A stretch of DNA of 64,000 nt from Chrysophaeum taylorii. Taxonomy: Eukaryota; Sar; Pelagophyceae; Pelagomonadales; Pelagomonadaceae. Location of the stretch: the NCBI GenBank assembly GCA_029834535.1, contig JAQMWT010000117.1:1-64000 (forward strand). Reading direction: 5' to 3'. The translations under genes were made by a program, and so were the position numbers. Numbering within the stretch: position 1 is the stretch's first letter; the number at the start of each line of letters is the position of its first letter. This document shows, piece after piece, positions 11,203 through 57,504 of this stretch. The notes under the pieces are model-generated. The model ran no database searches. It saw only the letters and a list, made by a program, of their open reading frames with translations, and had not been told where the DNA came from.

Positions 11203-11534
11203 ACTCCTGGGGAGGTCCTACCTCGCTCTGCTCTTGTTCTTTCTTTTTCGCGCCCTTCCGCTGCGCTTCGCTCCTTTCACGTGCCTCCTGCAGCCCTCTC
11301 TTCGCACCTGATCGCTTCGCTGGATGGGGAGGCACCAGCCTGTCCCAGTGACACGCCACTGACACACCAACCACGCACCACGCACGCGCCACGTCGCCTG
11401 TCCTGACACTAGGTCACATGCCACGTTCACTTCATACACACATGACACTCATGCGAAACCCTCTTGCAGAGATCGGGGGTGTAAGATGTGAAATGTGCCA
11501 GTGTCGCACACATAATAGTGTAGCTCTATGGACG
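11203..11534 (+). other. 3' non-coding part of Copia-1
   Basis: No gene is seen. A purine-rich stretch (GGATGGGGAGGCA, near 11320) could be a polypurine tract before a 3' LTR, but no partner LTR was recognised near the 5' end. Homology to Gypsy-A begins abruptly at about 11535. Confidence 0.35.
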
Positions 11535-12227
11535 AGCACTGGGCAAAGGTCCGAACAAATCAATACAAAGGACGGCGCAATCACCATCATACACCGGTTG
11601 CTGAAGCAGACCTGCTCTCTTTGGTTCAGGCGTACGAGCTTTCTTGCACACTATGCAACCAGCAATATAAGCACCCACCTCATTAGACATGTGGGGCCGC
11701 CAAAAACGTTCAAGTATCGACTGCACTGTACTTTGACGGCCCATGTGACAACCATTGAGAGGTGTGTCATGGTACAATCGGATGACGCGCGTCCGTAAAG
11801 TTCGGGGTGCGACTATCATCGGGTGCAAGTCAGGTGCGGCACGGTAGAGAACTCCTATCACCACTTGATAGCGATAATTGGCACCGTACCGACGAAGTGA
11901 ATGGCCCTGAGCCATGCGATATCGAATGTCCTCGCATGTAGCATCAGTGATCTGCCCTTTGGCTATCTCTTCCAAAGTCAAATTATCCGGAATCTTGTCG
12001 ATGTACTCTTGGTAATCATCGGCATCACGGAAAATACTAGGCTGGGTCTGCAGACGTTGCTTCTGACGTTGTTTCGTAGCATGTGACGTGACCAATTGCG
12101 TCGGATCATCGACGTCCTCTTCCTCTTCCTCCACAGGCAACTCAGTCGTAACAAACGACAGAATGACATGGCACCCAGGTAACGGTACTCCTTCATCATC
12201 GACAGGGCGAGGAGGTTCTTGGCACAC
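11535..12227 (-). pseudogene. Gypsy-A1 integrase, N-terminal part
   Basis: Encodes the HHCC zinc-binding domain (HMGRQSTVQSILERFW ... CIVCKKA) and the beginning of the core with its first Asp (CIDLFGPLP), then ends at the truncation. The DNG and NPAERVNR motifs present in Gypsy-A2 and D are missing. The upstream junction with RNase H contains a frameshift near 12230 relative to A2. Confidence 0.8.
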
Positions 12228-14164
12228 TAGATGCGCGGTTCAAGGGTTCACCAAACTCGTCCGTCTCGATGACATGATCTATAGGATTGCGAGAGAGACA
12301 GTCAGGGATACTCATTCCCGGCGACTTCCCTGGTTTGTAACCTAATTCAGGATCAAAATTGGCGAGCCGCATCGCCCATCGAGCCAACTGCCTAGACGAG
12401 TGCTTCGCCTTCCGCAAAAACGTCAAGTTGCGATAATCCGTTTCAAGGATCGTCTTGTGACCTTCGATATAAGAGCGGAAATGCTCAAGCGAAAGAATAA
12501 CTGCCAGGAGCTCTAGCCGGCGAGGCTCATAGTTCCGCATCTCTTTCGGCACAGCTCGGCTCCTATACTCAGTTACTTGTTCCTCTCGTGTCACCTTGCC
12601 GGTTTCGTCCTTGACTTCCACGAGCTGAAAAAATACGCGCCCAGACCATCCTTGGAAGCATCCGAGCGGATCTGAAAAGGAAGATCGTAGTCAGGGTGAT
12701 AAACTCCGCGAGAGTCCACCAAAGCTTCGATGGTCGCGTCCCATGCCTTTTGGCACTCAGGCGTCCACTCAAACTTAACGGCTTCAAGACACAATCGCCT
12801 AAGCGGCTCCACAATCTTCGAATAATTCTTCACATATCGGCGGCAATAGTTGCTCATACCAATGAAAGATCGAATCTGGGTCTTCGGGGACGTATTGGGC
12901 AACGTACCGGGAATCGGCATCTGCTGCAACGCTTTTATCGTCTTGGGATTCGGCTTCAAGCCTTCCGGAGTCGAAATATGTCCCAAAAACTCGATTTCTT
13001 CCTTGAGGAGGTGGAACTTCGAAGTTCGTCAACTATATCCTCGCTGTGCTAAATGGCATAACACTTCAATCAAAACTTGCAAATGTTGATGGAGTTCATC
13101 CGATCCCATAATAATATCGTCGACAAACGCGATCGAGTCCTTATACATCCATGTGGACAAATCGCTAGCCATCTGCTTACAAAAGAGAGCTCCTGCTGTT
13201 TTTACTCCTAGAGGCAAGCGCAATAAACTATGGGCACCAAGTGGACTAGCCATCGTAACGGCGTCCTGAGCAGCGGCGTCCAAACGTAAGTTATGACAAC
13301 CCCATCGAATATCAATGCACGTCCGCCAACGGCGCATGGCAAGAAAAGCCAAAGCATCATCTTGACGAATATTCGGCCAACTGTCATTGACCAGCTGATC
13401 ATTGAGCTGACGCAAGTCAACTGCAGCACGCAAAGCATTCGACGTCCCGGCCTCTGCTCCCTTCTTAGGCAGCATCAGTACAGGGAATCCCCACGGAGAG
13501 TTCACCGGTCGGATGACTCCATCGCGACACCACTCAGCGATCTGCTTTCTGAGACACTCGAGCTTTGCTGGCGTCAACCTATAAGGCGTCATCTTGATCG
13601 GTCGTGGGTTTGCGTCTTTAAAGCGTAAAGAAACCGGTGGCGAGTCCACGGGTTTCATAATCGGATCAAAGAAAGCACACGCGTATTGCACGCAATGGTT
13701 CAACATCATCTTCGGATCATCATCCAGATGCGGGTTGTCGGGAATTCCTAGATATCGAACAACCTTCTCGACTTCTTCCTTCGTCGGAGTTACAACTTTC
13801 ATCGCCTCATTGTCCTTGACGTGCTCCGGAGTCGCAGGTAACGGTACACCGCCCGCATCACGCGGCGCATCCTTCCATGGCACATCGAACTTTTCGTCGT
13901 ATTTGAACCTCACCTCAGGGTGGCTCTTATTGATCTTTTCACCTTTAACGCGCACATTCGGCTCGCTCCTTACTTTCGGCTCCTGTTCAGGTTCAGGATC
14001 CGGCGGAACGTCCACTTTTGAATGTCGGGGGGGGGCAGCAGAAAAGCATGAGCCGTCCCAGGCGCATCTGTTGGAAGCGGAAGCATAGGGACTTCTGGCG
14101 GTTCCCATTTAGTGGGATCCTGGAGATCATCTTTTGACACCCACTTATCGACACGAGTACGCAT
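12196..14164 (-). pseudogene. Gypsy-A1 reverse transcriptase and RNase H
   Basis: RT motifs read AAVDLRQLND (VDYRxLN type), CIDIRWGCHNL and IAFVDDIIMGS (FVDD active site). RNase H follows with RSDASKDGLGAY, LELLAVILSLEHF and LETDYRNL. Frameshifts relative to A2 occur near 13030 (RT to connection) and 12610-12630 (early RNase H). The Tyr of the usual GYHN motif is Cys. The N-terminal ~60 residues (VDKWVSKDDL) correspond to a linker also found after the methyltransferase of Gypsy-C. Confidence 0.85.
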
Positions 14165-14319
14165 TTAACAGCGGAATCTGTACGTGACGAAAGATGGTGT
14201 CGGAAATTCGCAAATACTGCTCAAAGGATCGATCTGTCGGGCTCAACGCGGTCGGCAGGACTTCGCCACTTTGGCGGAAACCTCTGGTCACGGAGTTGTG
14301 CAGATCGACTGCTAAAATC

Positions 14320-15140
14320 GCAAGAGTGTCTGGAGGGACGACAGACGCTAAATGTTTGAACGAATCTGTCTTATACAAGCTAGCCCAATCATGGTCCACC
14401 GGCATCGTGAGCAACTCGGCCGTCATCTCGAGAGTCAAAGGCTGAGTGTCCGAGCGATGCGGTCCCAAACGAAGAGGAACCCGCGTAACGGTGTAAGCCG
14501 TATCTGTTGCTTCTCGGGACGAGCCAAGATTATTCAGCTGGAGCAGGTGGCGTTCATGAGCATAACCTAAAGCTGCAGCAATTTTTTTTTTGCATGTTCA
14601 CACATGTCTTCGGAGCCTTTTGCAAGTGCAGTGGGTGACTGGAAACCAACAATCGCACGCGAGAGCTCATCAGAGTGGGCGTGATATCATGAAAATTGAC
14701 GACGTACACGTAAGGGTGTAAGCGCGCTATATAAGAAATAATGGACGCCTCCTGTTCGATCAGCCACATCATGAAGCCAGCCATTTTGCACAGCTTCATC
14801 GTCCAGTTAGTGGCCGTAACACCCTTGCCAACATCTCTGGATGTCAAGTTGCAGAGTGCGGAATGAACGCAGGGTGGAGACGCTATACACATCGACGATG
14901 ACCATTCCGCTTCAGGCAAATAAGCCTTGATCAATCGGAGGGTCGAGTCATATCGTCCGCAGAGCGTGTGCTGAACCACAGGTATCTTCGGAAAATTCTT
15001 CTGATGAACCTTGTTGGCAGCTGTTGAAGAGTCAAGAGCAAGGACGACTCGAAACGACGTCCCGCACAACTCGTTCGCTCGTTGCAGTCCTAAAGTACTT
15101 CCTCCGGCGCCGCTAAAGAGCATCACAACCTTGCGATACG
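14320..15140 (-). pseudogene. Cytosine-5 DNA methyltransferase domain of Gypsy-A1
   Basis: The family transfers a methyl group from S-adenosylmethionine to C5 of cytosine in DNA. Motifs in order: I, MLFSGAGGSTLGLQ (about 15120); II, LALDSSTAANKVHQKNFP; IV, IASPPCVHS with the presumed catalytic Cys (about 14870); VI position LIEQEAS, where ENV is usual; VIII, SSRVRLL; a target-recognition segment; IX, QPLTLEM; X, ASVVPPDTLAIL (about 14335). A frameshift at the T run near 14583-14592 separates motif VIII from the recognition region. It lies between protease and RT in the same polyprotein, so it is an element gene, not a host gene. The related domain in Gypsy-C supports the call. Confidence 0.85.
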
Positions 15141-16740
15141 TGATCGGCACCCAGTGGACCTTTTCAAACCTTCGGCGAATCTCGCCTTCTGTAACTTCTC
15201 GGCATTTCTTTTCCTCCTCGTCAGTTCGTCGGTCGAAATCGTCGTTACCGAGCGATTCTTGACGAGAATTCTTCTTCTTATCGGCAGAAGGAGACGCCTT
15301 CTGCACCGAGCTCAAAAGCATCGGTTCGGGAGCCGCATCGCCTTGAGTCAGATGGCTTGCGACCGAAACAGTGAATGATAGGTTAGCCTTGTTAGATTCG
15401 GCTTCACCATCCTTCGTTAAATCGTCGACCGTCTCAACATTCAGCTCGTCATCAAAACGAACAATATCGCCCAAAGCAAGGACTTCACCTTGAGTAATCA
15501 CGGTCGGCGCATCCTGGGTAGAGGATATCGCCACTCGAGCTGCGAACTTATCATGATCCTCAGGAGAAGAACACATTCCATCGACTACCCCGAGTTGCTC
15601 GTACCCAGAGGACGTAGCAACAAAAACTTGCCCGGTTTCCATGGGCTCTGAAAGAGCGACTGGCACGCAGTAGGTGCGCCCAGGCTCGACCTTCATCGTG
15701 CGCGCAGCATAGGCTATCACTTCATAGGCATCGCTGTTCGAACTTTGAGAAGGCGTAACTGGAGGGACTCCCCAAGTCGTCGAAGCTCCCGCTCGTTTCG
15801 GCGGTGGACGCTGGAGGTCTTCAATCTTGCACAAGCGAGCGTATACTCGGTGCTCAACTGTGCACAGGCTCTTTTGCATCGCATGGTGCTGTTGCCCATA
15901 AACCTGAACTACCACGGGATTGCGCTCGTCATAAGTTGTTCTGAACGTCAAAATCGGAGAATCGACTCGTCGATCCTGCACCTTTAACTTCTTGCGCCCA
16001 TAAGCGACTTGTGTGCGGAGAAACGCAATGCGATTTCGCGGGTAGTCCACTATGGCTCCCAACACCCGAATATCGCGCGCTCCCAGCAAAAATAGATGAT
16101 TAGTATCGGCGACAATAGCAACAACTGGAACGGCCACGTCGTCCGCAAGCGCAATCCACAATGCGACCCATTTGTGGATAGTCGTCTTGTTCAATCCTGA
16201 CCCGTACAGGGTGCGCTCGACTGGAAGATCGCCCCGGTCAAGGATGATGCTATCCTTTGCCAGTTTTTCGACCATCCCACGACAAATATAGGAGACATCA
16301 GCCATTCCATCCGCGCCTAAAGTCGTTGCGAACTTCGGCCCGTCTCGTCGTCTATAAATATGACCAACTATAAACGTAAGTGTACCAGGGTCCAGGCACC
16401 CGATGGTGATGAGGTCTTGCTCGGCCTTTTCCCCATCGCTCGGCGAAAGTGCAGTGTGATGACATCGCATCTCCGGTTTCGCATCGCCCGGTATCTGCAT
16501 CGTCACCGCTGCCATATCTGGCGTTCCACATCTCGCCGCTGAATCTATATTGGCGCTCGCCGCTTCGGCTGCTTCCTCATTCCCCAGCTTCGCTGACAAC
16601 AAAGTCTGACACTTCTCAATCGGAGGCACATATACTTCCTCCTTTATCTCTTCTGGCAATCGTCGTTTCTCGTCCATCAAATCGGACATTCCCGTCAACT
16701 TCTCCTCCATCGGCGCCGCTGTGATCTGCTCTGCTGCGAC
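15141..16740 (-). CDS. Gypsy-A1 retropepsin-like protease and linker
   Basis: Open in one frame with the methyltransferase. The protease-like domain spans about 16370-16010: TTLGADGMADVSYI aligns with the retropepsin active-site strand, LYGSGLNKTTI with the flap, and HLFLLGARDIRVLGAIVDY with the C-terminal ILG segment. The usual DTG/DSG is replaced by DGMAD; Gypsy-C has DGVAD, so the change is inherited. At about 15690-15430 a segment (VEPGRTYCVPVAL ... VITQGEVLALGDIV) resembles the beta-rich domain that follows protease in many gypsy elements. A charged Lys/Glu-rich linker leads to the methyltransferase. Confidence 0.65.
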
Positions 16741-16840
16741 CAAAACTGTATCGGCTAAAACACCGGCTAAAACGGTATCGGCTAAAACACCGGCTAAAAC
16801 GGTCTCAGCTAAAACGGTCTCGGCTAAAACGGTCTCGGGG
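16740..16840. repeat. 15-bp coding minisatellite in Gypsy-A1
   Basis: About seven imperfect units around CGGCTAAAACGGTCT, ending at a G run. On the - strand it encodes a pentapeptide-like repeat (TVLAE/TVLAD). Gypsy-A2 has a shorter version at about 54287-54333, so unit number changes between copies while the 15-bp period keeps frame. Confidence 0.8.
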
Positions 16841-17767
16841 GGGGGGCGTAGGAAAAGAAGACGTCGTCCCCGACGTCAACTCAGAAGGTCTAACGTCATC
16901 ATCGTGAACTGCCCTGCAAGACATGCACATTGACGAATGGGGGGACACTGGAACCTGCGGCGTGGGTTCGTCGGTCTCCGAATCTGGGTCTTCCCAGTAG
17001 TGCGGAGAATCCAAAGTAGCATCTGATATTGCTTCCACATACGATGTAGAAGGCCACCGAACGACCCGAGCGTTGGTGGTATTTTGCTCCTGTTGCAAAC
17101 GATGGCTGCTCATCACAGCGACATCGGCAACATCATCGGAGACTCGGGCGGGGCGCGCCGTCGGGTAAAAGACAACTCCCGACGATGGCGGCGCGTCGCA
17201 TAAAGATTGGAACGCGGAAGTAGCGCTCAAATGTCCCGAACTATCCTGATATCGACTTCCGTCATATTCGTCATCGTAATGTCGATGACGTCGGCGCCGG
17301 CGCGAATTGCGACTAGAGCTCCGGCGATGGCGGGGGTGGTTTGAGGAGTATTGGCCTTTCGATCAGGGCTCTGGCTTCGATGTCGGCGCGACGATCGTCT
17401 AGAAGGTGATCGTCCGTCTCGCTGTCGTGTAGAAAACGACGTACTATCCTTGATGCCTCTGACCTCGCTCACCATGGTCGCCATTGTGGTTCCAAGCTCG
17501 GTGAGGGCCGTTTCAATTTCATTAGAAGGCTCCGATCCGCGCGTGGCGTTCGCATGAGATGCATCATCACGCTTCTCCCTATCGGAACGCGATATGGGTT
17601 GCTTCTTCTGCTTTCGACTGCGCTTCCAGATCGCACAGTAATAACGGTCCGGATCGCGGTTGCAAACCACGCGATTTCCGTGTTCATCTTCATCATGGGT
17701 GGTCCATAAGAATCCGCAGTCCTTGTACGTCTTCTTGCACCACCAAGAAGGATCTCGTAAGATCAGC

Positions 17768-20416: not shown

Positions 20417-20436
20417 CGATCTCGTGTACTCCACCA
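20417..20436 (-). promoter_or_regulatory. Candidate primer-binding site, Gypsy-A1
   Basis: On the - strand it starts TGGTGGAGTACACGAG four bases inside the LTR, as expected for a tRNA 3'-CCA primer. The same sequence and spacing occur in Gypsy-A2 (57161-57180). The tRNA is not identified. Confidence 0.5.
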
Positions 20437-20440
20437 CGCA

Positions 20441-20761
20441 TGGCGGCACAGAAAAACCTACCCGACCCCCGGGTGACAAAGGGGGTACTCACCGACTCGT
20501 CCTGGACCTCACTGAACGAGGAAAACACGGACGCGGGGTCGGACATGCTCGCCACACACCTTGCTCGCGCTCACCAAGCCTCTCAACAAGATGGAGAGAT
20601 GGATATGATAGCAAGAATACTACAAGAATACAGCAAGAATGCTTCTCACAAGAGAGAGGTATGATGTCACTAAGAAGATAGGGAAAGGTGTCCCGTTGAA
20701 CGGGCATCAAGCCTCGAGAGAGGGGGGGGGTAAGCCTTAGCGGCCAGGAGTTGCCGCCACA
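20441..20761 (-). repeat. 5' LTR of Gypsy-A1
   Basis: About 321 bp, closely matching both LTRs of Gypsy-A2. The + strand begins TGGCGGCAC and ends TTGCCGCCACA, so the ends are inverted. A G run near 20721 lies before the outer end. The outer edge meets Helitron H2 sequence at CGGCCTTTCCCGG. Confidence 0.85.
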
Positions 20762-33143: not shown

Positions 33144-33164
33144 TCTTAACTACTAATCGACAGA

Positions 33165-33197
<33 letters not shown>

Positions 33198-39207: not shown

Positions 39208-39565
39208 TGTGGTGGAAACTCAGCTCACCCGCCCCTCTTCGCCTAACCGTCGGTCACAACGTGACCGCTCAACTGTCCTGAACCACGGGTGGTTCCACCA
39301 CACGTCCAACCAAACGCTCACACTCCGCTCACGCCATGCTGTCGAACATTCAATTGAGGGTAATTTTAAGGAAACAGCAAGAATCGATAGATTCCAATGG
39401 GAGATCCATCAAGATATGCTAGATCGGCAAGAGCAACACAGGTCCTCGGTACAGGAGTATCCTTGGAGAAGCAGGTGTGGGTGTCAAGCATGACACCGCC
39501 AAATTCAAGGTAACAGGCAGGTAACAGGCACATAAGCGGGGGGGGGAATGGTTATTACCGCCACA
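39208..39565 (-). repeat. 3' LTR of Gypsy-C
   Basis: The + strand runs TGTGGTGGAAACTC to ATTACCGCCACA, with inverted ends TGTGG/CCACA. A G run near 39540 lies before the outer end, as in the Gypsy-A LTRs. Inside the element a GTAGGGGGCTCC purine-rich string on - (39566-39578) may be the polypurine tract. Confidence 0.9.
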
Positions 39566-39600
39566 GGAGCCCCCTACTTAAGGTGAAGTCGTCCTCGACT

Positions 39601-42600
39601 TCAAGGGTGACGAAGGTCGCGCGCACGAATGAGACGATAAGCGCGTTCAGCGATGTCCGTAGGGACTTTGTTGCTGTGGAGGCTGAAGTTAGTGACAAGG
39701 GTATCGATCTCTTCAGGGCGGAAATCGTTGACACAAGGCTCACAGCCATCCATGTTCGCTCGAAAACGAGTGAAACTGCATCCGTCACGATCTTTGTATT
39801 CTGGTCTTAATCGTCGCTCCGTTAGAGGCTTGGTAGGGTCGAAAACACGGGGGTCATCGCGTGAACCTAGATCAGTATAATAGTGTAACGCCACAGTATC
39901 ATTGTCGTGATCATAGTCTTCATAGACCTCGGCAACGTAGATACGTTTCTTCCACGCATTACCTCGTGCTTTGACCCGAAAAATGACAAATTTGCCGTGC
40001 TTAAAGCGGTCGCGGTCTGAAGGCGTGTGCAGGGGGGCTGAAGAGGTGTCGATTATCGGCACTTTCAAAGGCACAATCTGCTGCACGGATACCACAACGG
40101 GTTCGGCATTGTCGTCGTGCACGTCTTTAATTTCGTAAACGACTGGAGACTTCTTCTTGGTAACAATATATGGGCCACGCCAAATAGGCCGCAACTTGTG
40201 ACGCGTCTTAGGCACAAAACGCAAGACATAATCGCCAGGAGAGAACTGGATGTCGATCTGATGGGCGTCGTAGTTGATCTTCTGAGTCTCCTGGGCCTTT
40301 TGATGTGCCCGAGCGACGAGTTGACTGTAAAATTCAAACTTGTGCTTAAAGTCCGTCAGGATCTGTTGACGCGATTGAGGCAGACCACGCTGTTCGCCCA
40401 GGATGTTGTAATCAGGCGGTAACAGGGGTTGCTTGCCGGTACGCATCATAAACGGCGAGATCTTCGTTCCGGGGATATACATCCGGTTGTACATGAAAGC
40501 CACGCACTGGACAAAAATAGACCAGTCCGTTTGGCGCTGCTCATCCATCGCGGCCCGGAGGAAGGCCTTGATGAACCGATTGACTCGCTCAGTATGATTA
40601 CTCTGTGGGTGATAAGGAATGGTCGTGCGGTATCGAACGTTGAATTGACGAACGAACGTCCGGAACAACTTGTTCGCGAACTCACTACCATTATCCGTAA
40701 CTATACACCGCGGGAGACATCCCTCGAGGACAATCTTGTCAACAAATGCATTCAAGATCGCGTAGTCATGCTTGGTATTTATCAACGCCAGCTTGAGAAA
40801 ATGCGACGTAGCATCGTACATCGCGAGGATATACGTGTGCAAGTCGGCTCCTCTCAGTGGTCCAAAGAGATCCATTCCTAGGACATAGCAATCACCAATG
40901 CGATTCGGTTGGCAACGGAGACCATAGCGCTTCGGCACAGTGGATCGAATTTTCTGACAGATGATGCAGGCCTTGATGAAGTCGGTGACCGACGATATGA
41001 CGTTGGGCCACCAGTATCGCTCCGAAATCTGGCTCGCTGTCGAATCTCGTCCCACATGGCCTCCGAACAGCCCTCGATGGTGCATGGTGATCACACGCTC
41101 CTGCATCGACTGTGGGACCACAATCAGACGTCGAGATTCTGACTCGTCAACCTTGTACAAGACGTTGTCTTCGATCTCGTACGGCAGAGGTGGCTTATCG
41201 CGTGTATCCTTCTGCTCCGAATCGAGGCTCTGACGGATCTGCGTGCAAGTCTTGTCTTCAATCTGTTCTTTAGCTATCTCCTCGAGAGTGATCTCATCCT
41301 CAGCTTGATCAGCAAAAGGGAGCCGTTCAACGGGGTCTACCGGTTCGGCTTCGTACGCAAATTGAGGCGGCGGCGCGCTCCGACGCGTACTAACTGCTGC
41401 TAGAGCTGCAGTATACTCCCTGTCTGCCAACAGAGACATCGTCACTGATGAGAAGGTGAAGCACGCTGTGCCCGGAACATCGGTGGGGATCTCCTGGAAG
41501 ATCAGATACGCTTCATTGATCGGTTCTCCGTCTTCGTCCTGCTCGATTAACTTGTCGATTGGATTGCGCGACAGGCAATCAGGGATGCGCATGCCCGGGG
41601 AATTTCCAGGTTTGTATCCGAGCTCCCGGTCGAACGCAGCAAGCCGCATAGCCCATCGTGCTAACTGTCCAGACGTATGATTCGAATCCCGCAGAAACGT
41701 TAAGTTACGATGATCCGTCTCTAACTTTGTCTGATGACCTTCGATATAAAATCGGAAATTTTCGAGAGCAGAGAGTACTGCGAGGAGTTCCAAGCGCCGA
41801 GGATCATATTTCCTCATCGATTTGGGCACAGTTCGACTCCAGTACTCAATAACTCTCTCCTCCACCCGTTCTTTTCCATCGTCACCAACGACTGGCACTT
41901 TCTGAAACAAGTAAGCGCCTAATCCATGCGCAGATGCATCCGTCCGAATGTAGAACGGCAATGAGTAGTCCGGATGGTAAATGCCCTTAGAAGTAACAAT
42001 AGCTTCGATGATGGCATCCCAGGCCTCTCGACACTCTTTCGTCCACTCGAACTTAACATCTGGCAAAGTCAACTGTCTTAACGGCTCCGCGACTCGCGCG
42101 AAATTGCACACATAACGACGACAAAAACTCCCCATCCCAAGGAAGGAGCGGACTTGCTTTTTGGGATCAGCATCTGACAAAGTACCAGGGATTGGCATAT
42201 GCCGGATGGCCTCCGTCGATCTTGGTGACGGGAGAAGTCCATTCGGGGTAGACAAATGCCCCAAGAATTCAATGACCTCCTTCATGAAGTGGATCTTCTT
42301 AACCTTGCCGCTATACCCTTTCGACGCCAAGTGGGGAATGACTTGAACAAGGCATTGCAAATGACTCTTAGTGTCTGCATGCCCAGCCAAAATGTCGTCG
42401 ATATAAGCCACTAGGTCACGGTACAACCACTTCGACAGATCGGTGTTGAGTTGCTTGCAGAACAGGCTGCCAGCAGGCTTGACTCCCAAAGGTAAACGCA
42501 TATAGCTGAATGCTCCCAAAGGACTAGTGAAGGTCACTACATCCTGCGCGTCCGCTGACAATCGCAAATTGTGGTAACCCCATCGGATGTCCATGCTAGA

Positions 42601-43560
42601 ACGACGGAACTTGTCGGTGAGAAACATCAACGCGTCGGTCATGCTCACGCTCGGCCAACTGTCATCCTTGAGCAATTTGTTGAGGCGCCGCAGGTCGACA
42701 GCCGCTCTGTAAGCGTTGGAAGTGCCTGGCTCAGCCCCTTTCTTAGGCAGCATCAGGATAGGAAAACCCCAAGGAGAGTTCGCGGGACGGACAACTCCGT
42801 CTCGGCTCCATTCCTCGATTTGAAGTCTCAAGCACTCGATCTTCTCCTTTGACAACCGATACGGCGACAACTTAATCGGGCTCGGATTGTCCTCTTTGAA
42901 CCGGAGGGTGACCTCAGGCGAATCAACGGGTCTCATCACGTCATCAAAGAATGCCCACGAGTAGGAAAGCAAGTGTCGCATCATCCGTTTTTCATCCTCA
43001 TTTAAAGCGGGATGGTCTGTAATGCCCAGCGCAGCCATCACCTCTTCGACCTGCGCGACGGTCGGAGGGATGACTTGCATGCTCTCTTGATCAGCTAAAT
43101 GAGGAGGCACCACTGGTACAGGATAACCATGTTCGTCGTTAGGCGCGTCCGCCCACGGAACTGCGTACGTCTTGAAATACGCTGGTCGCTCCTTCAATGT
43201 GCCTTCCTCTTCAGCGGTCGTAGAGACTTGGTTGCTCTGCATCACAGCAGTGGCGACGGTGCCCCCTGAAAAAGATTGAGCCGTCCCAGGCGATACAACC
43301 AACGGTGGTGGTGGGGTGGCGGTGGGAACAGCGGTGACGTTTGAAGTTTGGCTGGAGTAGAGGTCGTCTTGATGGATCCATGACACACATCGGGTGTCAG
43401 GGTCGAGCGTGGGAATACGCGAGTCGATAGCAAAAGATGAAAACCGTAGAAGACGGTAATCGGGATTGGCCATCGTCGCGGTAGTGATATTACGTAGTTG
43501 ACCCTGATTGCGAATCACATGATCAAATGAATTATGCACTGCGAGTGCGATGCGCATCAT
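39601..43560 (-). CDS. Gypsy-C pol: RT, RNase H, integrase
   Basis: 1319 residues, intact. RT ~190-480: AAVDLRRLN, SMDIRWGYHNLRL, LVAYIDDILAG (YIDD active site near 387). RNase H ~505-640: IRTDASAHGLGAY, LELLAVLSALENF, LETDHRNL. Integrase: HHCC zinc domain ~825-870 (HHRGLFGGHVG ... CIICQK), catalytic D ~897 (MDLFGPL), D ~956 (VTDNGSEF), E ~991 (SNHTERVNR), then the GPY/F module ~1125 (LRPIWRGPYIV). Residues ~1189-1255 (GKFVIFRVKARGNAWKKRI ... HYYTDLG) form an extra conserved domain also in Gypsy-A2 and D. No chromodomain is recognised. The first residues continue the methyltransferase frame. Confidence 0.95.
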   Translation of the reverse strand: MMRIALAVHNSFDHVIRNQGQLRNITTATMANPDYRLLRFSSFAIDSRIPTLDPDTRCVSWIHQDDLYSSQTSNVTAVPTATPPPPLVVSPGTAQSFSGGTVATAVMQSNQVSTTAEEEGTLKERPAYFKTYAVPWADAPNDEHGYPVPVVPPHLADQESMQVIPPTVAQVEEVMAALGITDHPALNEDEKRMMRHLLSYSWAFFDDVMRPVDSPEVTLRFKEDNPSPIKLSPYRLSKEKIECLRLQIEEWSRDGVVRPANSPWGFPILMLPKKGAEPGTSNAYRAAVDLRRLNKLLKDDSWPSVSMTDALMFLTDKFRRSSMDIRWGYHNLRLSADAQDVVTFTSPLGAFSYMRLPLGVKPAGSLFCKQLNTDLSKWLYRDLVAYIDDILAGHADTKSHLQCLVQVIPHLASKGYSGKVKKIHFMKEVIEFLGHLSTPNGLLPSPRSTEAIRHMPIPGTLSDADPKKQVRSFLGMGSFCRRYVCNFARVAEPLRQLTLPDVKFEWTKECREAWDAIIEAIVTSKGIYHPDYSLPFYIRTDASAHGLGAYLFQKVPVVGDDGKERVEERVIEYWSRTVPKSMRKYDPRRLELLAVLSALENFRFYIEGHQTKLETDHRNLTFLRDSNHTSGQLARWAMRLAAFDRELGYKPGNSPGMRIPDCLSRNPIDKLIEQDEDGEPINEAYLIFQEIPTDVPGTACFTFSSVTMSLLADREYTAALAAVSTRRSAPPPQFAYEAEPVDPVERLPFADQAEDEITLEEIAKEQIEDKTCTQIRQSLDSEQKDTRDKPPLPYEIEDNVLYKVDESESRRLIVVPQSMQERVITMHHRGLFGGHVGRDSTASQISERYWWPNVISSVTDFIKACIICQKIRSTVPKRYGLRCQPNRIGDCYVLGMDLFGPLRGADLHTYILAMYDATSHFLKLALINTKHDYAILNAFVDKIVLEGCLPRCIVTDNGSEFANKLFRTFVRQFNVRYRTTIPYHPQSNHTERVNRFIKAFLRAAMDEQRQTDWSIFVQCVAFMYNRMYIPGTKISPFMMRTGKQPLLPPDYNILGEQRGLPQSRQQILTDFKHKFEFYSQLVARAHQKAQETQKINYDAHQIDIQFSPGDYVLRFVPKTRHKLRPIWRGPYIVTKKKSPVVYEIKDVHDDNAEPVVVSVQQIVPLKVPIIDTSSAPLHTPSDRDRFKHGKFVIFRVKARGNAWKKRIYVAEVYEDYDHDNDTVALHYYTDLGSRDDPRVFDPTKPLTERRLRPEYKDRDGCSFTRFRANMDGCEPCVNDFRPEEIDTLVTNFSLHSNKVPTDIAERAYRLIRARDLRHP

Positions 43561-44500
43561 AGTCGCAGGAGGTACGTACCATGCTCCCCAGCATCTTCAT
43601 AGCCGCTGATTGCGAAATGCTACCCCATTTCCACGTCGTGGGGACGGTCATGATCTCCTGATGCATTTCCACGGACAGTGGTCGCACATTGGAAACGTGA
43701 GGGCCCATCTGCAACTTATTGCGCGTCACTGTGAAAGTGGGGCCGATGGCTGGTCGCGTAGATGAAAAGCTGTTCACCACAATCAGAGGGTGACCACTCG
43801 GAAAGCCTAACGCTGGCCCGAAACGGTCCTGCAAATTGGGTGGCACTCGCGTCAGTAGTGGCAATGACAAGCGCACATTGCTGCCAAGTAGGCGCGTGCG
43901 CGAACACAGCAATTCCGGGGTGATACTGTAAAAGTCAACCACACGCGGAATGTAGAACTTGTGATGGATAAAGGGAATCACGGATGGCTCCTGCTCCAAC
44001 GTCCATCGTCCAATCACGTGAGGTGCATTGCGGAAATGACGCAGAACCCACGAGGTGATGGCAGCACCCTTGCGCGCGTCCCTGTAGTGCAGGTTCGCGG
44101 TCGAGCCATAAATACAAGGAGGACTGGCGTGGAAGTACGAATGTCTCCAATGATCCTTATGTAGGTATGACAAGACCACATCGTACGTGCGACGATGAGA
44201 TTTCCCCAGGTCATGAAGCACGTACGGGATCTTAGGAAAGTTGAGCTGGAAAACAGCTCGCGCTTGTGGACATGAGTCCAAAGCCAACACAAAGCGAAAA
44301 GAGGTTCCATAGATCTCATTGCATCGTTGGATCCCCAAACTCGATCCACCAGCGCCGGCGAAATAAACGACGACGCTGATATAGGTGATTGGAATCCAAA
44401 CCAAAGAAGCATGCCTAGCAATAAGCTCCTGAGTCGTGGCTTCTTCCTTCGACATTTTTTTTGTTCCTTCTTCTGGAGGAGGTTCAGGAGGGGGTCTCAC
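43532..44500 (-). CDS. Cytosine-5 DNA methyltransferase domain of Gypsy-C
   Basis: About 322 residues. Motif I, VVYFAGAGGSSLGIQRC (47-57); motif II, LALDSCPQARAVFQLNFP; motif IV, HASPPCIYGS with presumed catalytic Cys ~129; motif VI position TLEQEPSV (~169); motif VIII, LCSRTRLLG (~200); recognition region ~205-265; motif IX, VRPLSVEM (~273); motif X, LGSMV (~305), then a 4-bp duplication shifts frame and the expected PP lies in the pol frame. This would add C5-methyl groups to DNA, perhaps the element's own copies or their targets. The upstream frame is open back to about 44640. The motif VI change, shared with Gypsy-A1, is worth noting because that Glu-Asn pair helps activate the cytosine ring. 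Confidence 0.87.
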   Translation of the reverse strand: MRPPPEPPPEEGTKKMSKEEATTQELIARHASLVWIPITYISVVVYFAGAGGSSLGIQRCNEIYGTSFRFVLALDSCPQARAVFQLNFPKIPYVLHDLGKSHRRTYDVVLSYLHKDHWRHSYFHASPPCIYGSTANLHYRDARKGAAITSWVLRHFRNAPHVIGRWTLEQEPSVIPFIHHKFYIPRVVDFYSITPELLCSRTRLLGSNVRLSLPLLTRVPPNLQDRFGPALGFPSGHPLIVVNSFSSTRPAIGPTFTVTRNKLQMGPHVSNVRPLSVEMHQEIMTVPTTWKWGSISQSAAMKMLGSMVRTSCDYDAHRTRSA

Positions 44501-44609
44501 AGCTAAGACCTCCTCCTCGACTTCCGTCTCATCTTCGTCAGCTGAAGCAGTCGCAAAACAGACTCTTGTATCCTCTTCAGCGGCTTCCAGCTGTACTTTG
44601 ACGCAACCT

Positions 44610-47123
44610 TCATGAAAAGTCGCATTCTCGCGCTCCTAGTAGTAGCTGCCCATTCGTCTGCCCCACGAAAAACATCAGCAGAGTGGAAGTTCCAGGCGTC
44701 ATAGAAACGCGCAAGATAATCCATTCGCGAATAGCCGCTCCCGAACCACCTGATCCGCTAAGAGTGCGAGTAGAGGGCAGCGCCTGGCGATGAATGATCT
44801 TATTTTCACGTCTGAGCTTGTTGTAGAGCACGTGATCGATGTATGGCGAGTCAGCCACACCATCCAGCCCAGCTGCAAGGACCGAATAAGATGCACCATC
44901 CTGAGTCACAACGGCGACAGGGATATACGTCAAACATGTCAACTTCGCCCCGTCGTATGTCACTGCTTTGTTCTCGCGATGATCGGGATGACTAGCTGTA
45001 TTCATCGCTGTCTGCGGGCAGAACTCATCGAAATCAGAGCTAATGCTCGGGCATGCAGCGGAGCCAGTGGCAAGATCGTCTGATGACGGCTCCACAGCGA
45101 TGGCCATCAATTGGTCTCGACCAGTAAACCAGCTTGGGTCCTCGTCTATCGACATCTCCCCTCCGTCTTGACTGGAGATGATAGACGCGACTTTGCGCAC
45201 CTCAGCACTCCGACTCTCTTCTGCCGTCCATGCGTCCTCGGTGATCACCAAAAAGGAGGGCGGTTCCATGGGTTCATCACAAAAGGAGTGCTCCTCTGGT
45301 GTTACATCACCACGGCTCTCATCCTCGTCGTCTCCGCTGATCACATTGCCGTCAATCAGCGCCGCATTCTGCACCGTGCATCCATTGAATCGCCTAGGGC
45401 CGCCCTGAACTTCACCAAGCACATCGAGCCACTGGGAGGCGGCGCCGGCACTGCACTGGCTGGGGTTGGCCTGCTGCTGTGTCGACTGGGTGGCTTGGCG
45501 TAGCAACGACAGGGTGTTTAGTGCCTGCGCAACGTCCTCCGATCTCAGCGTGCGCGATGCACTCTGCTGCTGCACCACTGGTTGCTGAACCATCTGCTGC
45601 GGAGCGGCTGCGATTACCTGTTGGGGACCTGCACCTGTGCCCTGCGCAGCAGTGTAGACGACCTGTGGGGGTGGCGTAAATGGTGCTTGAACGCGCTGCG
45701 TCACGGCAGCTTGATTAGCCGTGACCGCTTGTCGACATTGGGCCTGTCCTTCTGCCGTCGGTGGGAAGCCTGCAGCCTTCAACGTTCGGGCAGCGCGAGC
45801 TTTCCGATCAGGATTTCCAGGCTTAGGACACACCCCATCATCGTGCCCGTAATAAATATGCTTCCCACATTTCACGCACGTCATCAACGCATAGCGTAAC
45901 TCAGAGTCGAGATTCTCCGGAAGCCGACCAGACGCGTCAGAGCTGGTGACATAACCTGCTAGCTGCTGCTGCTGATACCATTCCTTACGCGTACGGTGGG
46001 GCTTGTCTTTTGGGACTTTGGTCTTTTTTGGATCTTCATGCTTGTCGCTGGACGTCCCCACCTCTGGCATCGCGTCCAATTGCAAGGCAAGTTGGAACGT
46101 CTGGTCTAGCGTTTGGTCCGGGGCCGAGATCCGCGCAAGGTGAATGTCGTGTCGGAGCTTTTCAGACGATAACCCTCGGAGAAAGTGCATCCGAAAAGCT
46201 TCGGGTTCCACCGGGTTCTTAGAAGCAGCTCGCCATAGTCCAAATTTTTGGACCCACTTGCTGACGTACTTGGAAAGCGGAAGGTTGCCTTGCGTCATCG
46301 TGTACCACTCGTACTCCAGTTGCTCTGTAGTAGCTCGAGGAGGGCAGGGCAATAGGAGTGCCTCGATTTTGGCCAAGTACTCCTCGTCGTGCTTACGGAT
46401 TTCCGCCTTCGAAACACGTCCGCGTAAATACCCTTTCCATAGTGGCTTGTGCTCGTCTTCCCACTTGTTATAAACAGTCATGGGAGCGAGTTGATATTCG
46501 CCACCGATCATGTTCATGGCGCATGAAGGACGGTCGAGCCTTAGCTCGATGATCCGCATCAGTTGGTTCCACCACGTCCGTACTTCGTCACGCGTCTTGA
46601 CAATAGGGCCCTGGAGTGTCGGGAAGTTCAACCTGTGCATCCCCGTCGGACCTCTATCGATGCTGATGGTATCATCGAACTCATCATCGTCGCCAGAAGG
46701 ATCGAAGTCAGGTGCAGAGGGCCTCCGCCGTATTGGTTCGGGATGCTTTCGAGGCGGGGGGTCGTCTGCACGATTTGCCGCGGCGTCGTCCGCTAGTTCC
46801 GGTCTGGCGCGATCAACGTCAGGTGATGGTGATCGCTTGTCTCGGACTCGCATGGCCTCTTTGAGCTCACGCCGCAGCTTCTCGGCCTCGTGCCGCTGAA
46901 ACTCGGCCTCTCGACGATGTTGCTCGACGAGGGTAGTATCGAGAGATGGTGGATATTCTTCTCGAGCTCGTCTCGCATCTTCGATTTCTCGTCGAAGCCG
47001 TTCATTCTCGGCTCGTTCATGCTGAGCTGTCCGACGCTGAAGCTCAGCGTCTCGGTATTGGCGTTGAGACTCTTCTCGCTCGTATTCCATCGTCCCTTCG
47101 AGATAGTGGATCTTAGAGCGATA
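44610..47123 (-). CDS. Gypsy-C gag and protease, main part
   Basis: Continues gag after H9 to a TGA at 44610. N-terminal charged coiled coil (REESQRQYRDAELQRRTAQ), acidic linker, capsid-like segment (NFPTLQGPIVKTRDEVRTWW ... FRMHFLRGLSSEKLRHDI), variant zinc segment CVKCGKHIYYGHDDGVC, Gln-rich region, then a protease-like domain over the last ~100 residues: GLDGVADSPYIDHVLYNKL as active-site strand and GQLLLGAREC as C-terminal segment. The stop falls just after the protease; the methyltransferase frame is open from about 44640, so a frameshift joins them, either programmed or mutational. Confidence 0.85.
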   Translation of the reverse strand, partial: YRSKIHYLEGTMEYEREESQRQYRDAELQRRTAQHERAENERLRREIEDARRAREEYPPSLDTTLVEQHRREAEFQRHEAEKLRRELKEAMRVRDKRSPSPDVDRARPELADDAAANRADDPPPRKHPEPIRRRPSAPDFDPSGDDDEFDDTISIDRGPTGMHRLNFPTLQGPIVKTRDEVRTWWNQLMRIIELRLDRPSCAMNMIGGEYQLAPMTVYNKWEDEHKPLWKGYLRGRVSKAEIRKHDEEYLAKIEALLLPCPPRATTEQLEYEWYTMTQGNLPLSKYVSKWVQKFGLWRAASKNPVEPEAFRMHFLRGLSSEKLRHDIHLARISAPDQTLDQTFQLALQLDAMPEVGTSSDKHEDPKKTKVPKDKPHRTRKEWYQQQQLAGYVTSSDASGRLPENLDSELRYALMTCVKCGKHIYYGHDDGVCPKPGNPDRKARAARTLKAAGFPPTAEGQAQCRQAVTANQAAVTQRVQAPFTPPPQVVYTAAQGTGAGPQQVIAAAPQQMVQQPVVQQQSASRTLRSEDVAQALNTLSLLRQATQSTQQQANPSQCSAGAASQWLDVLGEVQGGPRRFNGCTVQNAALIDGNVISGDDEDESRGDVTPEEHSFCDEPMEPPSFLVITEDAWTAEESRSAEVRKVASIISSQDGGEMSIDEDPSWFTGRDQLMAIAVEPSSDDLATGSAACPSISSDFDEFCPQTAMNTASHPDHRENKAVTYDGAKLTCLTYIPVAVVTQDGASYSVLAAGLDGVADSPYIDHVLYNKLRRENKIIHRQALPSTRTLSGSGGSGAAIREWIILRVSMTPGTSTLLMFFVGQTNGQLLLGARECDFS

Positions 47124-48111
47124 CAAGTGCAGGCCAGTAAGTTCACCTACTCCCAATCTCTAACCCCAGTAAGTTCACCTGGTCCCAGTAAGTTCACCTA
47201 GTCCCAATCTCTAACCCCAGTAAGTTCGGCGTAAGCCCACTCGTGCTCACATCCACTCACCCCACTCTCCTTCGAGCCCGTCGCTCTCACCTCCGCCAAT
47301 CTAAGCTGCTTTGATCCGTACACGCCGCTAGCCTTTGCGTTCACTCTAAAAACCCCAGTAAGTTCACTTGGTCCCAGTAAGTTCACCTGGTCACTCAGCT
47401 CACCTAGTCCCAATCTCCAACCCCAGTAAGTACACGTGGTCCCAGTAAGTTCACCTACAGTGCGCGTGTAGACGCCGGGAGGGGGCTTATCGGTATTGCG
47501 CAGCACGTGTGGGGTAGGGTGGAGTCGTCGACCCAGATGAGTATATCCTTGGGGATGCCGATCGACAGAGAGCCACGTAGAGCTGGACGTGGCAGAAGAC
47601 GGGCTTGGGAAAGAGGACGCCGACCTCGCGGGGCGTCTGGACCTGGCTCTTGTTGATCGTTTGGCGTAGGCGGGCCTTAAGCGATACAGGTTGGAGGAGC
47701 CTCGGTGACAACGACACGATCGATCATGTATCTGGTACCGTTGCAGTGGCCGTGCGACGGGTCGAGGTTGCGAAGACATTAAGCTCGCGATCAAAGTCAG
47801 CATGCCGTTGGTTGTCAGGGAGTTGAAAACTCTACTGTAAAGAGCGAGGCGTCGTCTTCCGACCCAACCTAGTCGGCCGAAAAGAACTCCGACGCCTCGT
47901 CTCCGGGAAAAAAAGGCCGCGTCACGCGCGCGTTGTCAGCATCGACAACATCGTTTCGACGGGGCGTGAGAATGGCGCGCTGAAAGAGCCGCCGCGGGTC
48001 GTGGAAATAGTCTGCGAGGTCGCCGTAGACGGCTTGGAGGATCACTGTCTGGCTCTCGCGCCTACCTGATCCTTACTCTCGCGCCTACCTGATCCTTACC
48101 CTAAATCGAGG

Positions 48112-49093: not shown

Positions 49094-49452
49094 TGTGGTG
49101 GAAACTCAGCTCACCCGCCCCTCTTCGCCTAACCGTCGGTCACAACGTGACCGCTCAACTGTCCTGAACCACGGGTGGTTCCACCACACGTCCAACCAAA
49201 CGCTCACACTCCGCTCACGCCATGCTGTCGAACATTCAATTGAGGGTAATTTTAAGGAAACAGCAAGAATCGATAGATTCCAATGGGAGATCCATCAAGA
49301 TATGCTAGATCGGCAAGAGCAACACAGGTCCTCGGTACAGGAGTATCCTTGGAGAAGCAGGTGTGGGTGTCAAGCATGACACCGCCAAATTCAAGGTAAC
49401 AGGCAGGTAACAGGCACATAAGTGGGGGGGGGGGGTGGTTATTACCGCCACA
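49094..49452 (-). repeat. 5' LTR of Gypsy-C
   Basis: About 359 bp, nearly identical to the left LTR. The main difference is the length of the G run near 49425-49437. The outer edge is followed by GTGG, the duplicated target. Confidence 0.9.
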
Positions 49453-49967
49453 GTGGGTGCGGGAGATTGCGGAGAGATGTCACGGGCAGCGGTGTGCGTG
49501 GGAACCGGTGGCGAAGGATGGTCGACCTCAAGGTCCATGTCCGTGCCGGTGGGAAGAGGGTGTGTGCCAGACGAGGGGAGGTTCTCGGCGGCAATGTGGG
49601 TGGACATGAAGGACGGTTCGAGGTCCATAGGCGCAGGCTCGAGTGGTATGGGGTCATGAACTGTGGCGGAGGACCGCTGGCGGTGTGGGGGGCGGCGACG
49701 CGATGCAGGAGAGTTTTCGGCAGAGGGACCGGGAGGGTGGGTGGCTGGCGCCGTGGTGGGTATTGGGAGGGGCGCGGTGGTATTGGCGGTCCCCGCGTTC
49801 GGTGGAGGCGCGATGTCCGTAGCAACAGATCATGGTGGCGCGCGGCGGCGGGGGCCATGGCGGCGCGGTGCCGGTGTCGCAGCGGGCGGAGGGGGATTCG
49901 CATTGGTGGGTTCCCGACGGCGAGGGGGGGAGGTAGCGGACCCTGCCTCCGATGACTCCAGGTCCAT
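49453..49967 (-). pseudogene. IQ-like repeat gene, 5' part
   Basis: The - frame that continues into 39207 after removing Gypsy-C. ATG candidates are at 49967 (MDLESSEAGSATSPP) and 49628 (MDLEPSFMSTHIAAEN); a third MDLE occurs downstream, so the N-terminus holds a diverged MDLE-containing repeat in a Pro/Thr/Ala-rich background. An in-frame TGA lies at 49830-49832. From ATG 49628, 172 nt here plus 974 nt at 38234-39207 give exactly 382 codons. The Gypsy-A2 LTR begins 29 bp upstream of the first ATG, so the promoter is lost. Confidence 0.5.
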
Positions 49968-49995
49968 AGCCGCAGGCCCAGGAGGGGTGGTGTTA

Positions 49996-50324
49996 TGGTG
50001 GCACAGAAAAAACCTTCCCGACCCCCGGGTGACAAAGGGGGTGCTCACCGACTCGTCCTAGACCTCACTGAACGAGGAAAACACGGACTCGGGGTCGGAT
50101 ATGCTCGCCACACACCTTGCTCACGCTCACCAAGCCTCTCAACAAGATGGAGATGTGGTATATGATAGCAAGGAAACCACAAGAATGCAGCAAGAATGCT
50201 CCTCACAAGAGAGAGGTATGATGTCACTAAGAAGATCGGGAAAGGTGTCCCGTTGAACGGGTATCAAGCCTCGAGAGAGGGGGGGGGTAAGCCTTAGCGG
50301 TCAGGAGTTGCCGCCACAGGACTC
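49996..50324 (-). repeat. 3' LTR of Gypsy-A2
   Basis: + strand from TGGTGGCACAG to TTGCCGCCACA, with a G run near 50280. A purine-rich CCAGGGGAGTCC on - at 50325-50337 is a polypurine-tract candidate and is nearly the same in Gypsy-D. Confidence 0.85.
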
Positions 50325-50348: not shown

Positions 50349-51692
50349 TCAGCGAGTCCGGCGAGAAGCACGTGCCTTGGCTGAATGAGCATCTCGAGGA
50401 CGAATCTTCTTGTAGGCACGTTCAACGACAGGTTCAGGAACGCGTCCACGACGCAAAGTGAACTTAGGAATCAACACATCGATCTCATGCGGAGCGAAGT
50501 CGGTGACACAAGGAGTGGTACTGTTGTTGACATTGGTCTTGTTGGTGAAACTGCGATCGTCCACGCCCTTGTATTCCGGCTTAAGCTTGCGAGTAGAGAG
50601 ATGTGAAGTAGGCTTGTAATAAGAAACCTTGTCATGGGGACCGAGATCAGCATAGAAATGCAGAGCGACTCGATCATTCACAAAATCATAGGGTTCATAA
50701 ACTTCAGCGACATAAATCTTCTTTCGCCAATCGGACCGTTTATTATCCGGAATCCGAAAGATAACGAACTTACCATGCTTGTAATCATCCCGAAAGGTCT
50801 CCTTGGGCTGGGCACAGCTCGATCGACCACTGGAGAAACCATCACAGGGGTAATCTGACTAACATGAACACAACGGCGTTCGGGAGGAGAATCAAGAGAC
50901 CCAATCCTGTAAGTGACCGGGGACAAGCGTTCCAAAATAACGAATGGACCGCGCCATTCCGGTCGAAGCTTGTTCTGAAGAAAAGGGATGTAGAGCAGAA
51001 CATGTGAACCTTCTTCATACTCCACATCAACATGGTCCGCATTATAGGCGAGACGTTGTTTACGAAGAGGCTTCTCACGAGCTTCGTTCACCGTAGCGGT
51101 ATTGAATTTCAACCCCTCGCGAGTCTCTGCCACAACATCGGATCGAGTTTTCGGCAGGCGGCGGACATCAAGATCCATGATCGTATAATCTGTTGGCAAT
51201 AGAGGCTGCCTGCCGGTTGAGACGAAGCATGAAAGGTGAGATCTGAGTCCCCGGAATAAATTTACGATCGTAACAGAAAGCAATGTACTCCGCGAATTCG
51301 GGCCATTCCGTGTTCTTGCGGTTTTGAAGGCACGCACGGAGGAAAGCCTTGATAAAGCGGTTGACCCTTTCCGCTGGATTAGCCTGAGCATGATACGGAA
51401 TCGTGGTACTATACCGAACATTGAAAGGATGACAAAACTCTTCCATCGACTTGTTGACGGACTCTTTCCCATTGTCGGTACGAATCCTCTGATGTAGATA
51501 ACCTTTGAGTAATACATTCGCGAAAAAAGACTCGAGGATTGACTCAGCAGTCTTTTTTTTTTGGTGTAGTACGTCAAGAATCAAGAAACGAGAAAATGGA
51601 TAAAAAAAAACGATGAGATATGTCTCGGGACCAGCATTGGGCAAAGGTCCAAACAAATCCATACAAAGGACGACACAATCACCATCATACAC
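50349..51692 (-). pseudogene. Gypsy-A2 integrase and C-terminal domain
   Basis: Catalytic D in VLCMDLFGPLP, D in RTDNGKE, E in NPAERVNR; GPY/F module LRPEWRGPFVI near 50940; then the extra domain (KFVIF ... IYVAEVYE-like ... LHFYADLGPHD) and a tail ending at 50349. Frameshifts occur near 51555 (A run), 51220 and 50780. Compared with Gypsy-D and C, the order and conserved residues match. Confidence 0.85.
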
Positions 51693-56802: not shown

Positions 56803-57160
56803 TCGAAGTAATTCACGTTGATTCCAACAACGCTATCTGTCGCTGTAAAAACAGCACGCACGGAACTCCAATCCGCTGGCAATTCAAAAATGCTCGTGGG
56901 TAGCGATCCCACTCGCTAAACAGCTTCCACCGTTCAGCTATACCAAAATCAATTCCCGGGAGAATGCGCTGCGATTTCCAACTCGCACGCGTGTTCGTCG
57001 TCACTCGGATCGTACGAACGCAAACAACGTTCGCGTATATTCTCAACGCAAACCGGTCCAATGGAACTCCGTGTGCTTGATCAGGGCTCACGTACAAATC
57101 CGGACCACGTAATACAACACCTACGGCAGCACTCGCTCGTCGGCGACCGATGTAGTCGCA

Positions 57161-57180: not shown

Positions 57181-57184
57181 CGTA

Positions 57185-57504
57185 TGGCGGCACAGAAAAA
57201 CCTTCCCGACCCCCGGGTGACAAAGGGGGTACTCACCGACTCGTCCTAGACCTCACTGAACGAGGAAAACACGGACTCGGGGTCGGGTATGCTCGCCACA
57301 CACCTTGCTCACGCTCACCAAGCCTCTCAACAAGATGGAGAGATGGTATATGATAGCAAGGAAACTACAAGAATACAGCAAGAATGCTTCTCACAAGAGA
57401 GAGGTATGATGTCACTAAGAAGATCGGGAAAGGTGTCCCGTTGAACGGGTATCAAGCCTCGAGAGAGGGGGGGTAAGCCTTAGCGGTCAGGAGTTGCCGC
57501 CACA
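57185..57504 (-). repeat. 5' LTR of Gypsy-A2
   Basis: 320 bp, ending GAGTTGCCGCCACA on +, next to the 3' coding end of the non-LTR reverse transcriptase gene. Shorter G run than the other LTR. Confidence 0.85.

Follow-up and report, generated by a model that had tools for sequence, protein, structure and literature searches.

Retrotransposons encoding C5-cytosine methyltransferases (MTases) have been described in charophytes and dinoflagellates, as an earlier note on the locus studied here had stated and as the available text of de Mendoza et al. 2018 (PMC5890265) bears out for Klebsormidium and Symbiodinium. The closest of these systems is KnitGypsy-Dnmt3 of Klebsormidium nitens, in which an MTase of the DNMT3 class lies in the Gypsy Pol open reading frame (ORF) (PMC5890265). 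SymbioDIRS-Dnmt3 and SymbioLINE-Dnmt of Symbiodinium are retrotransposon-coded C5-MTases present in hundreds of copies, according to the same text. Other mobile methylase carriers, namely DIRS elements with Dam-like N6A methylases (PMC5890265) and algal ParB-methylase DNA transposons (PMC12477816), belong, as far as the available text of these papers goes, to other methylase families and other element classes than the elements reported here. In its available text, PMC12344493 cites the 2018 paper for DNMT3s in "LTR Copia and DIRS", whereas the 2018 paper itself assigns the Klebsormidium element to Gypsy.

Here we describe Ty3/gypsy elements of another algal host, Chrysophaeum taylorii. Like KnitGypsy-Dnmt3 (in the available text of PMC5890265), they have a C5-MTase in the Gypsy Pol ORF, exist in several copies and bear signs of purifying selection. 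They differ from it in having a long terminal repeat (LTR) at each end (copies B and C below) and the motifs FxGxGG, SPPC and EQE, and in their host; KnitGypsy-Dnmt3, whose MTase is of the DNMT3 class, resides in a charophyte and has repeats described as laid out like those of DIRS. Unlike the two Symbiodinium elements, which are a DIRS and a LINE in the same source, they are LTR Gypsy elements. The earlier note had found a gypsy arrangement of this kind unfamiliar. A Gypsy Pol with a DNMT was in fact already in print in PMC5890265, so MTase-bearing Gypsy elements as a kind are not new; for the order from protease through MTase to reverse transcriptase (RT), the main text of that paper, from which the word "protease" is absent, offers no comparison. 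Within the openly accessible literature that we searched, we found no report of the present MTase motif set, of a protease-MTase-RT frame with three deep lineages, or of gypsy and copia MTases side by side. Sequence, predicted fold and conservation together establish that a C5-MTase domain is a standing part of Gag-Pol in a Ty3/gypsy clade.

A C5-MTase domain in the Gag-Pol of Ty3/gypsy elements

The window, that is, the whole 64,000-nucleotide stretch of DNA analyzed, contains three gypsy copies on the minus strand, A, B and C, all of which are relics. Copy A is a Ty3/gypsy LTR element at about 11530-20761. One of its ORFs (773 aa, 14554..16875, minus strand) carries in a single frame a protease-like segment (DGMAD ... 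LLGARDIRVLG; 16030..16400, ends approximate) and MTase motifs I (FSGAGGSTLGL), IV (SPPC), VI (IEQE) and VIII (SRVRLL), these four motifs lying at 15198-14587. Past a homopolymer frameshift near 14590, a separate ORF (14145-14597) supplies motifs IX and X (VVPP) in a different frame, at 14582-14259. The MTase domain spans 14259..15198 (minus strand), slightly wider than the interval 14320..15140 where the earlier note had placed it, and the claim that it is in frame with the protease holds for motifs I-VIII but not for IX and X of this copy. Downstream on the same strand lie the RT (13029..14108; PF00078, E 2e-6, 28.1 bits, just below the cut-off of 29.6), RNase H in two overlapping ORFs (12196..13028; PF17917, E 1.4e-18, and PF17919, E 4.8e-10) and the zinc-binding part of integrase (11526..12239; PF17921, E 2.6e-14). 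With a Pfam RT downstream and a protease-like segment upstream, the location of the MTase between protease and RT was confirmed. The protease itself was assigned by position and motif, and Pfam gave no match in the three segments tried. A single LTR was located for copy A, the 5' LTR at 20440..20761 (minus strand), which is 94% like one LTR of copy C; a second one was not found. Homology between copies A and C ends near 11530, and accordingly the integrase core and the 3' LTR of copy A were not found. The MTase of copy A is a relic, its frame lost before motif IX and the element truncated. Seven siblings were compared with copy A at its homopolymer, two of which (L056 and L057) stem from near-duplicate contigs. 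L056, L057 and L058 read through it with 313 open codons, L059 and L061 are broken at the same homopolymer with another run length, and L055 has the same run length as copy A; in this comparison L055 and L060 were read with the frame shifted by one base.

In copy B, a Gag-to-protease ORF (849 aa, 44610..47159, minus strand) is followed by an MTase ORF (367 aa, 43532..44635, minus strand) and a Pol ORF (1331 aa, 39601..43596, minus strand) that contains motif X, RT, RNase H and integrase. A frame break precedes motif X, which shares its frame with the Pol ORF. Compared with the sibling L040, copy B has a gap of about 646 bp near 44614, between its protease and its MTase, and it also hosts a repeat insertion of about 1.07 kb. 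Its 3' LTR (39208..39566, minus strand; TGTGGTGG...CCGCCACA on the plus strand) pairs with the 5' LTR (49094..49453, minus strand), the two being 98.9% identical over 360 columns. Copy C (50349..56832, minus strand) is 91-96% like copy A in the matching pieces and has lost about 2.55 kb with the protease and the MTase, the junction being near 54195. Its 3' LTR (49994..50318, minus strand) is 96.6% identical to its 5' LTR (57183..57504, minus strand). The LTR pairs of both copies have TG...CA ends. Copies B and C each have a possible primer-binding site adjoining the 5' LTR, just below 49094 in B and just below 57183 in C; both start with TGG in the sense of the element, and the two differ in sequence.

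Other repeats occur in the window. Short dispersed repeats ending in GTTAGTTAG are found at 2160-2459, 7891-8257, 17767-18146, 18994-19387 and 60539-60905, the third and fourth of them inside copy A. Another repeat, about 1.07 kb long and containing TGTC runs, occurs in several head-to-tail copies (4057-5034, 32138-37164, 47198-48155 and 62084-63100), one of them within copy B. Copia-like Pol stretches were seen at 8962-11202 (plus strand) and 21783-24503 (minus strand), and an ORF at 57765-59306 (minus strand) is LINE-like in appearance. An Rfam search across the window gave no match.

The gypsy-borne domain is almost certainly a C5-cytosine methyltransferase. The motifs occur in the right order in copy A and in its siblings, as first read from the window. 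The Pfam profile PF00145 matched all 13 gypsy MTases of our alignment A1 at E ≤ 0.01 (best 6.5e-10), with L039 reaching 38.2 bits against a cut-off of 22, and the window ORF of copy A itself matched weakly, below that cut-off (19.1 bits, E 0.00097). The dcm model TIGR00675 also matched 13 of 13, at best with E 4.8e-5 and far below its own cut-off. Structure prediction for the MTase of copy A (pTM 0.66, pLDDT 65.8) returned a Rossmann-type C5-MTase fold, and ranks 1-24 of its Foldseek list are all C5-MTases, with human DNMT2 at the top (2.2e-7) and HaeIII, DNMT1 and plant MET1 close after it. The model of copy B was poor (pLDDT 47.9), and its structure matches are no more than consistent with a C5-MTase. 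The earlier note had named three findings that would count against its reading, namely no C5-MTase profile hit, a fold that is not Rossmann-type and motifs absent from other copies; none of the three was observed.

In C5-MTases, by the customary motif names, motif I binds S-adenosylmethionine (SAM), and the Cys of motif IV, the Glu of motif VI and the Arg-x-Arg of motif VIII are the residues of the chemistry. One hundred of the 317 columns of A1 are invariant, including all 13 named motif residues (F30, G32, G34, G35, D58, P111, C112, E152, R184, R186, V291, P292 and P293). We fetched 30 B/L041-type loci and dropped two, the split match L013 and the window's own copy, L009. In the remaining 28 copies, each strict motif was present in 26 or 27 (I, IV and VIII in 27; VI and X in 26), and 8 of the 28 had an internal stop in the MTase region, one each. 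The gypsy MTases have PC-I/V instead of PCQ in motif IV and EQE instead of ENV in motif VI. A profile search of the PDB gave weak matches to 8yf3 (E 0.02) and 3g7u (E 0.49), neither of which is a DNMT3. A tree of 14 MTases, which included no DNMT3 reference, had long branches and did not fix the deep order.

Sibling elements, lineages and selection

To place the window copies, we searched the genome assembly (G000; 70.8 Mb, 697 contigs). Window copies included, it contains at least 150 matches to the A-type MTase (150 of 854 candidates scored) and at least 124 to the B-type MTase (117 of 929 scored), a few copies being counted double from split matches. The two lists are taken as disjoint because matches in the A list share at least 83% identity with A and those in the B list at least 57% with B. 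Copies A and B represent different types, with an MTase identity of about 41% as measured on the siblings L056 and L039.

Intact arrangements were found outside the window. L039 has a single ORF of 2129 aa comprising Gag-like (residues 600-1150 being Gag), protease-like, MTase and RT parts. That of L040 (2115 aa) runs from a protease-like segment through MTase, RT and RNase H to integrase, with Pfam matches to the MTase (531-613), RVT_1 (1068-1231), RNase H (1327-1439), H2C2 (1611-1669) and rve (1692-1781; 29.4 bits, below the cut-off of 32.6). On contig C5, MTase and RT matches lie inside ORFs of 3067 and 3063 aa, of which only the length was established. The ORFs of L039 and L040 demonstrate that in this gypsy clade the MTase sits between a protease-like segment and the RT in one open frame.

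The spacing between the two domains is regular. Among the matches listed, an MTase match lies no more than 4 kb upstream of 64 of 98 B/L041-type RTs, at a median gap of 691 bp (96 rows), and 943-972 bp upstream of 32 of 52 A-type RTs. The RTs at C591:22377 and C682:174892, for example, are paired with an MTase at 691 and 943 bp, respectively. The 34 of 98 B/L041-type and 20 of 52 A-type RTs that have no MTase among the matches listed may belong to elements that have decayed or, like copy C, been truncated, or may be accompanied by an MTase beyond those matches. One unpaired RT that we inspected had a diverged MTase upstream, which defines the lineage L062.

The L062 MTase is 47% identical to A and 37-38% identical to the B and L041 types. 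It has the motifs PPC, IEQE, TRRR and IPP and keeps 12 of the 13 named residues, with I in place of V291. Since the B and L041 types share about 83% identity, we count three deep MTase lineages (A, B/L041 and L062). Across these lineages, at 37-47% identity, the catalytic Cys, the Glu and the Arg-x-Arg are fixed.

We then compared nonsynonymous and synonymous substitution rates. Between B-type and L041-type MTases, dN/dS was 0.057-0.111 (4 pairs, dS 0.9-1.8), and within the L041 type it was 0.16 (ratio of means, 91 pairs). The very close pair L039-L012 gave 0.86, at a dS of just 0.018. For the RT, dN/dS was 0.03 for L039, L040 and copy B versus L042, and 0.28 in three very close pairs. MTase values are above those of the RT, so the MTase evolves faster than the RT, yet it is clearly constrained. 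Between A and B, synonymous sites are saturated; the MTases of these types are 41% and their RTs 63% identical. On these ratios, selection has evidently preserved the MTase domain in gypsy elements.

Copia MTases and host MTase genes

Ty1/copia elements of the same genome contain a different C5-MTase, located between a protease-like segment and the integrase. Two of them, L048:3597-9452 (contig C96) and L047:704-6307 (contig C314), have ORFs of 1952 and 1868 aa, respectively. They resemble the gypsy elements in that the MTase follows a protease-like segment and matches PF00145 (4 of 4 copia MTases tested), but they differ in their copia RT, in the position of the MTase before the integrase and in the motifs LPCQ and ENV. 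We counted 137 matches to the copia MTase at about 129 places in the genome, and tblastn gave no match to it in the window. For this MTase, nine of 10 pairs gave dN/dS values of 0.10-0.22 and the tenth gave 0.45; L007 has a stop. An hhalign comparison, in which both profiles were shallow, gave no link between copia and gypsy MTases (probability 0.1%), and we take the copia MTase, judging from these sequences, as a probable separate acquisition.

PF00145 matches listed for the genome number 57, of which 55 are within copia MTases and the other two are host genes; the same two genes top the list of a dcm profile search. One is a DNMT5-like gene with MTase and SNF2 parts in one long ORF (L043:3968-9901), matching 7r76 (E 1.3e-272). 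That entry is labeled Rad8, and we take it to be Cryptococcus Dnmt5. The other, with an SPPCQ motif, encodes DNMT2 (L044:4822-5901; E 3.9e-39 to human DNMT2). DNMT2 is a tRNA methyltransferase and DNMT5 is of the maintenance type. Since neither the PF00145 nor the dcm search of the genome picked up the gypsy MTases, host MTase genes may have escaped them too, intron-rich ones in particular. A search for DNMT1-RFD gave no match, and neither did its controls. Antenna-protein matches (84 in the genome) include some beside the host DNMT2 gene on the opposite strand, and clusters of very similar antenna-protein genes are found on C88, C390 and C539. The antenna protein of L049 matched 41 PDB sequences at 1e-20, many of them fucoxanthin chlorophyll a/c-binding and the best four being LHCI chains of 9vfj; that of L053 matched only LHCI chains of 9vfj at 1e-25. 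On these matches the host is probably an alga of the chlorophyll-c kind.

A protein-database search gave no match with the copia MTase profile and two with the gypsy MTase profile, of which only P0002 is free of retroelement parts. P0002 is a free-standing predicted MTase of 440 aa (ENA source) that aligns with A1 over motifs I-IV (hhalign probability 96%) and has its own motifs PPCQ, EEV and QTRER. It shows weak phage matches (27% identical, 2 records). As for a P0002-like host gene, a six-frame search gave 30 matches (best E 5.9e-5), and the places that we compared were gypsy MTases, so this candidate was rejected. A viral origin was likewise rejected at the level of close relatives: viral_contigs held no such relatives of the gypsy or copia MTase, nor any of P0002, and prokaryote genome_contigs held no close relatives of the gypsy MTase.

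Possible functions of the gypsy MTase

On balance, the gypsy MTase probably methylates cytosine in the DNA of the element around integration; the earlier note had suggested methylation of the element's own DNA or of its insertion site. The enzyme would be made in every particle alongside RT and integrase, would bind SAM and, around the moment of integration, would methylate cytosines either of the element's double-stranded cDNA or of the DNA where the new copy inserts. Such a copy would thereby be methylated from birth, and host DNMT5 could carry the mark on. The element might benefit from quiet, less harmful insertions or from being shielded against host sensing of bare DNA. In a diatom, CG methylation disappears globally when DNMT5a alone is lost, and the fungal orthologue of DNMT5a is called a maintenance enzyme (available text of PMC9998398). 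The domains of SymbioDIRS-Dnmt3 carried out de novo CG methylation in yeast, and the Klebsormidium Gypsy DNMT yielded no methylation there, a result deemed inconclusive by its authors (available text of PMC5890265).

We also looked at CpG content. The observed/expected ratio at 7 host loci was 1.26-1.43. Among the elements, copy B and L039-L042 ranged from 0.96 to 1.09, and copies A and C came to about 1.2; two copia elements that carry an MTase gave 1.00, and the two copia-like stretches of the window, where no MTase was seen, gave 1.06 and 1.22. The MTase-bearing elements examined thus show no clear CpG depletion of the kind that self-methylation might leave behind, and CpG content speaks neither for nor against such methylation.

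The domain could instead have lost methyl transfer and serve Pol by binding nucleic acids or by targeting, for example by steering integration to particular DNA in the manner of a DNMT3L-like relative. The changes from PCQ to PC-I/V and from ENV to EQE are common to lineages A, B/L041 and L062, and hence look like a settled state and not random decay, which would suit such an adapter. But Cys, Glu, Arg-x-Arg and motif I are fixed across lineages that are only 37-47% identical, and a pure adapter would not need the catalytic Cys, so we regard this role as unlikely. Somewhat less likely still is a DNMT2-like RNA m5C methyltransferase, whose substrate would be the genomic RNA, the tRNA that primes reverse transcription or the RNA-DNA hybrid formed in its course. 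Human DNMT2 as top Foldseek match, the resemblance of SPPC to the SPPCQ of host DNMT2 and the adjoining RT would fit this activity, for which the substitutions in motifs IV and VI also leave room, but the structures of HaeIII, DNMT1 and plant MET1 are close behind in the same list, and the 14-MTase tree did not fix the deep order.

A part in defense or counter-silencing, in which the domain would shield its host or its own element from DNA viruses or competing elements, seems decidedly improbable; a defense role has been proposed for accessory domains of retrotransposons (available text of PMC6338049), but nothing in the present data bears on it directly. Finally, that the motifs match by chance, or that the domain is a passenger derived from a host MTase gene picked up a single time and now in decay, has next to no chance of being right: the three window copies are broken and stops interrupt 8 of 28 MTase regions, but profile, fold, copy number (at least 124 and at least 150 matches of two types, in three deep lineages) and selection (dN/dS of 0.06-0.11 between types, which is not neutral), along with steady MTase-RT spacing and open frames elsewhere, rule it out.

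Returning to methylation of element DNA around integration, two LTR superfamilies of one genome each have an MTase at the same site, following the protease, and this argues that LTR elements have repeatedly profited from methylation at integration. A broader scenario, which we put forward tentatively and consider doubtful as a whole, is that the only DNA-directed de novo cytosine MTases of this alga reside on its retrotransposons, gypsy and copia elements having independently placed an MTase behind the protease, and that the host contributes upkeep by DNMT5 and tRNA methylation by DNMT2. If this were true, the elements would write the methylome and the host would maintain it, and the de novo counterpart missing for DNMT5 would have a living example in this alga. 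Among the matches listed, no MTase gene other than DNMT5 and DNMT2 lies outside the elements, which makes this genome a test bed for de novo methylation under DNMT5 maintenance. Beyond the charophyte and dinoflagellate cases, C. taylorii is a further algal host for retrotransposon-borne cytosine MTases, and its gypsy MTases have motifs that differ from the usual PCQ and ENV and have been kept through deep divergence of the elements.
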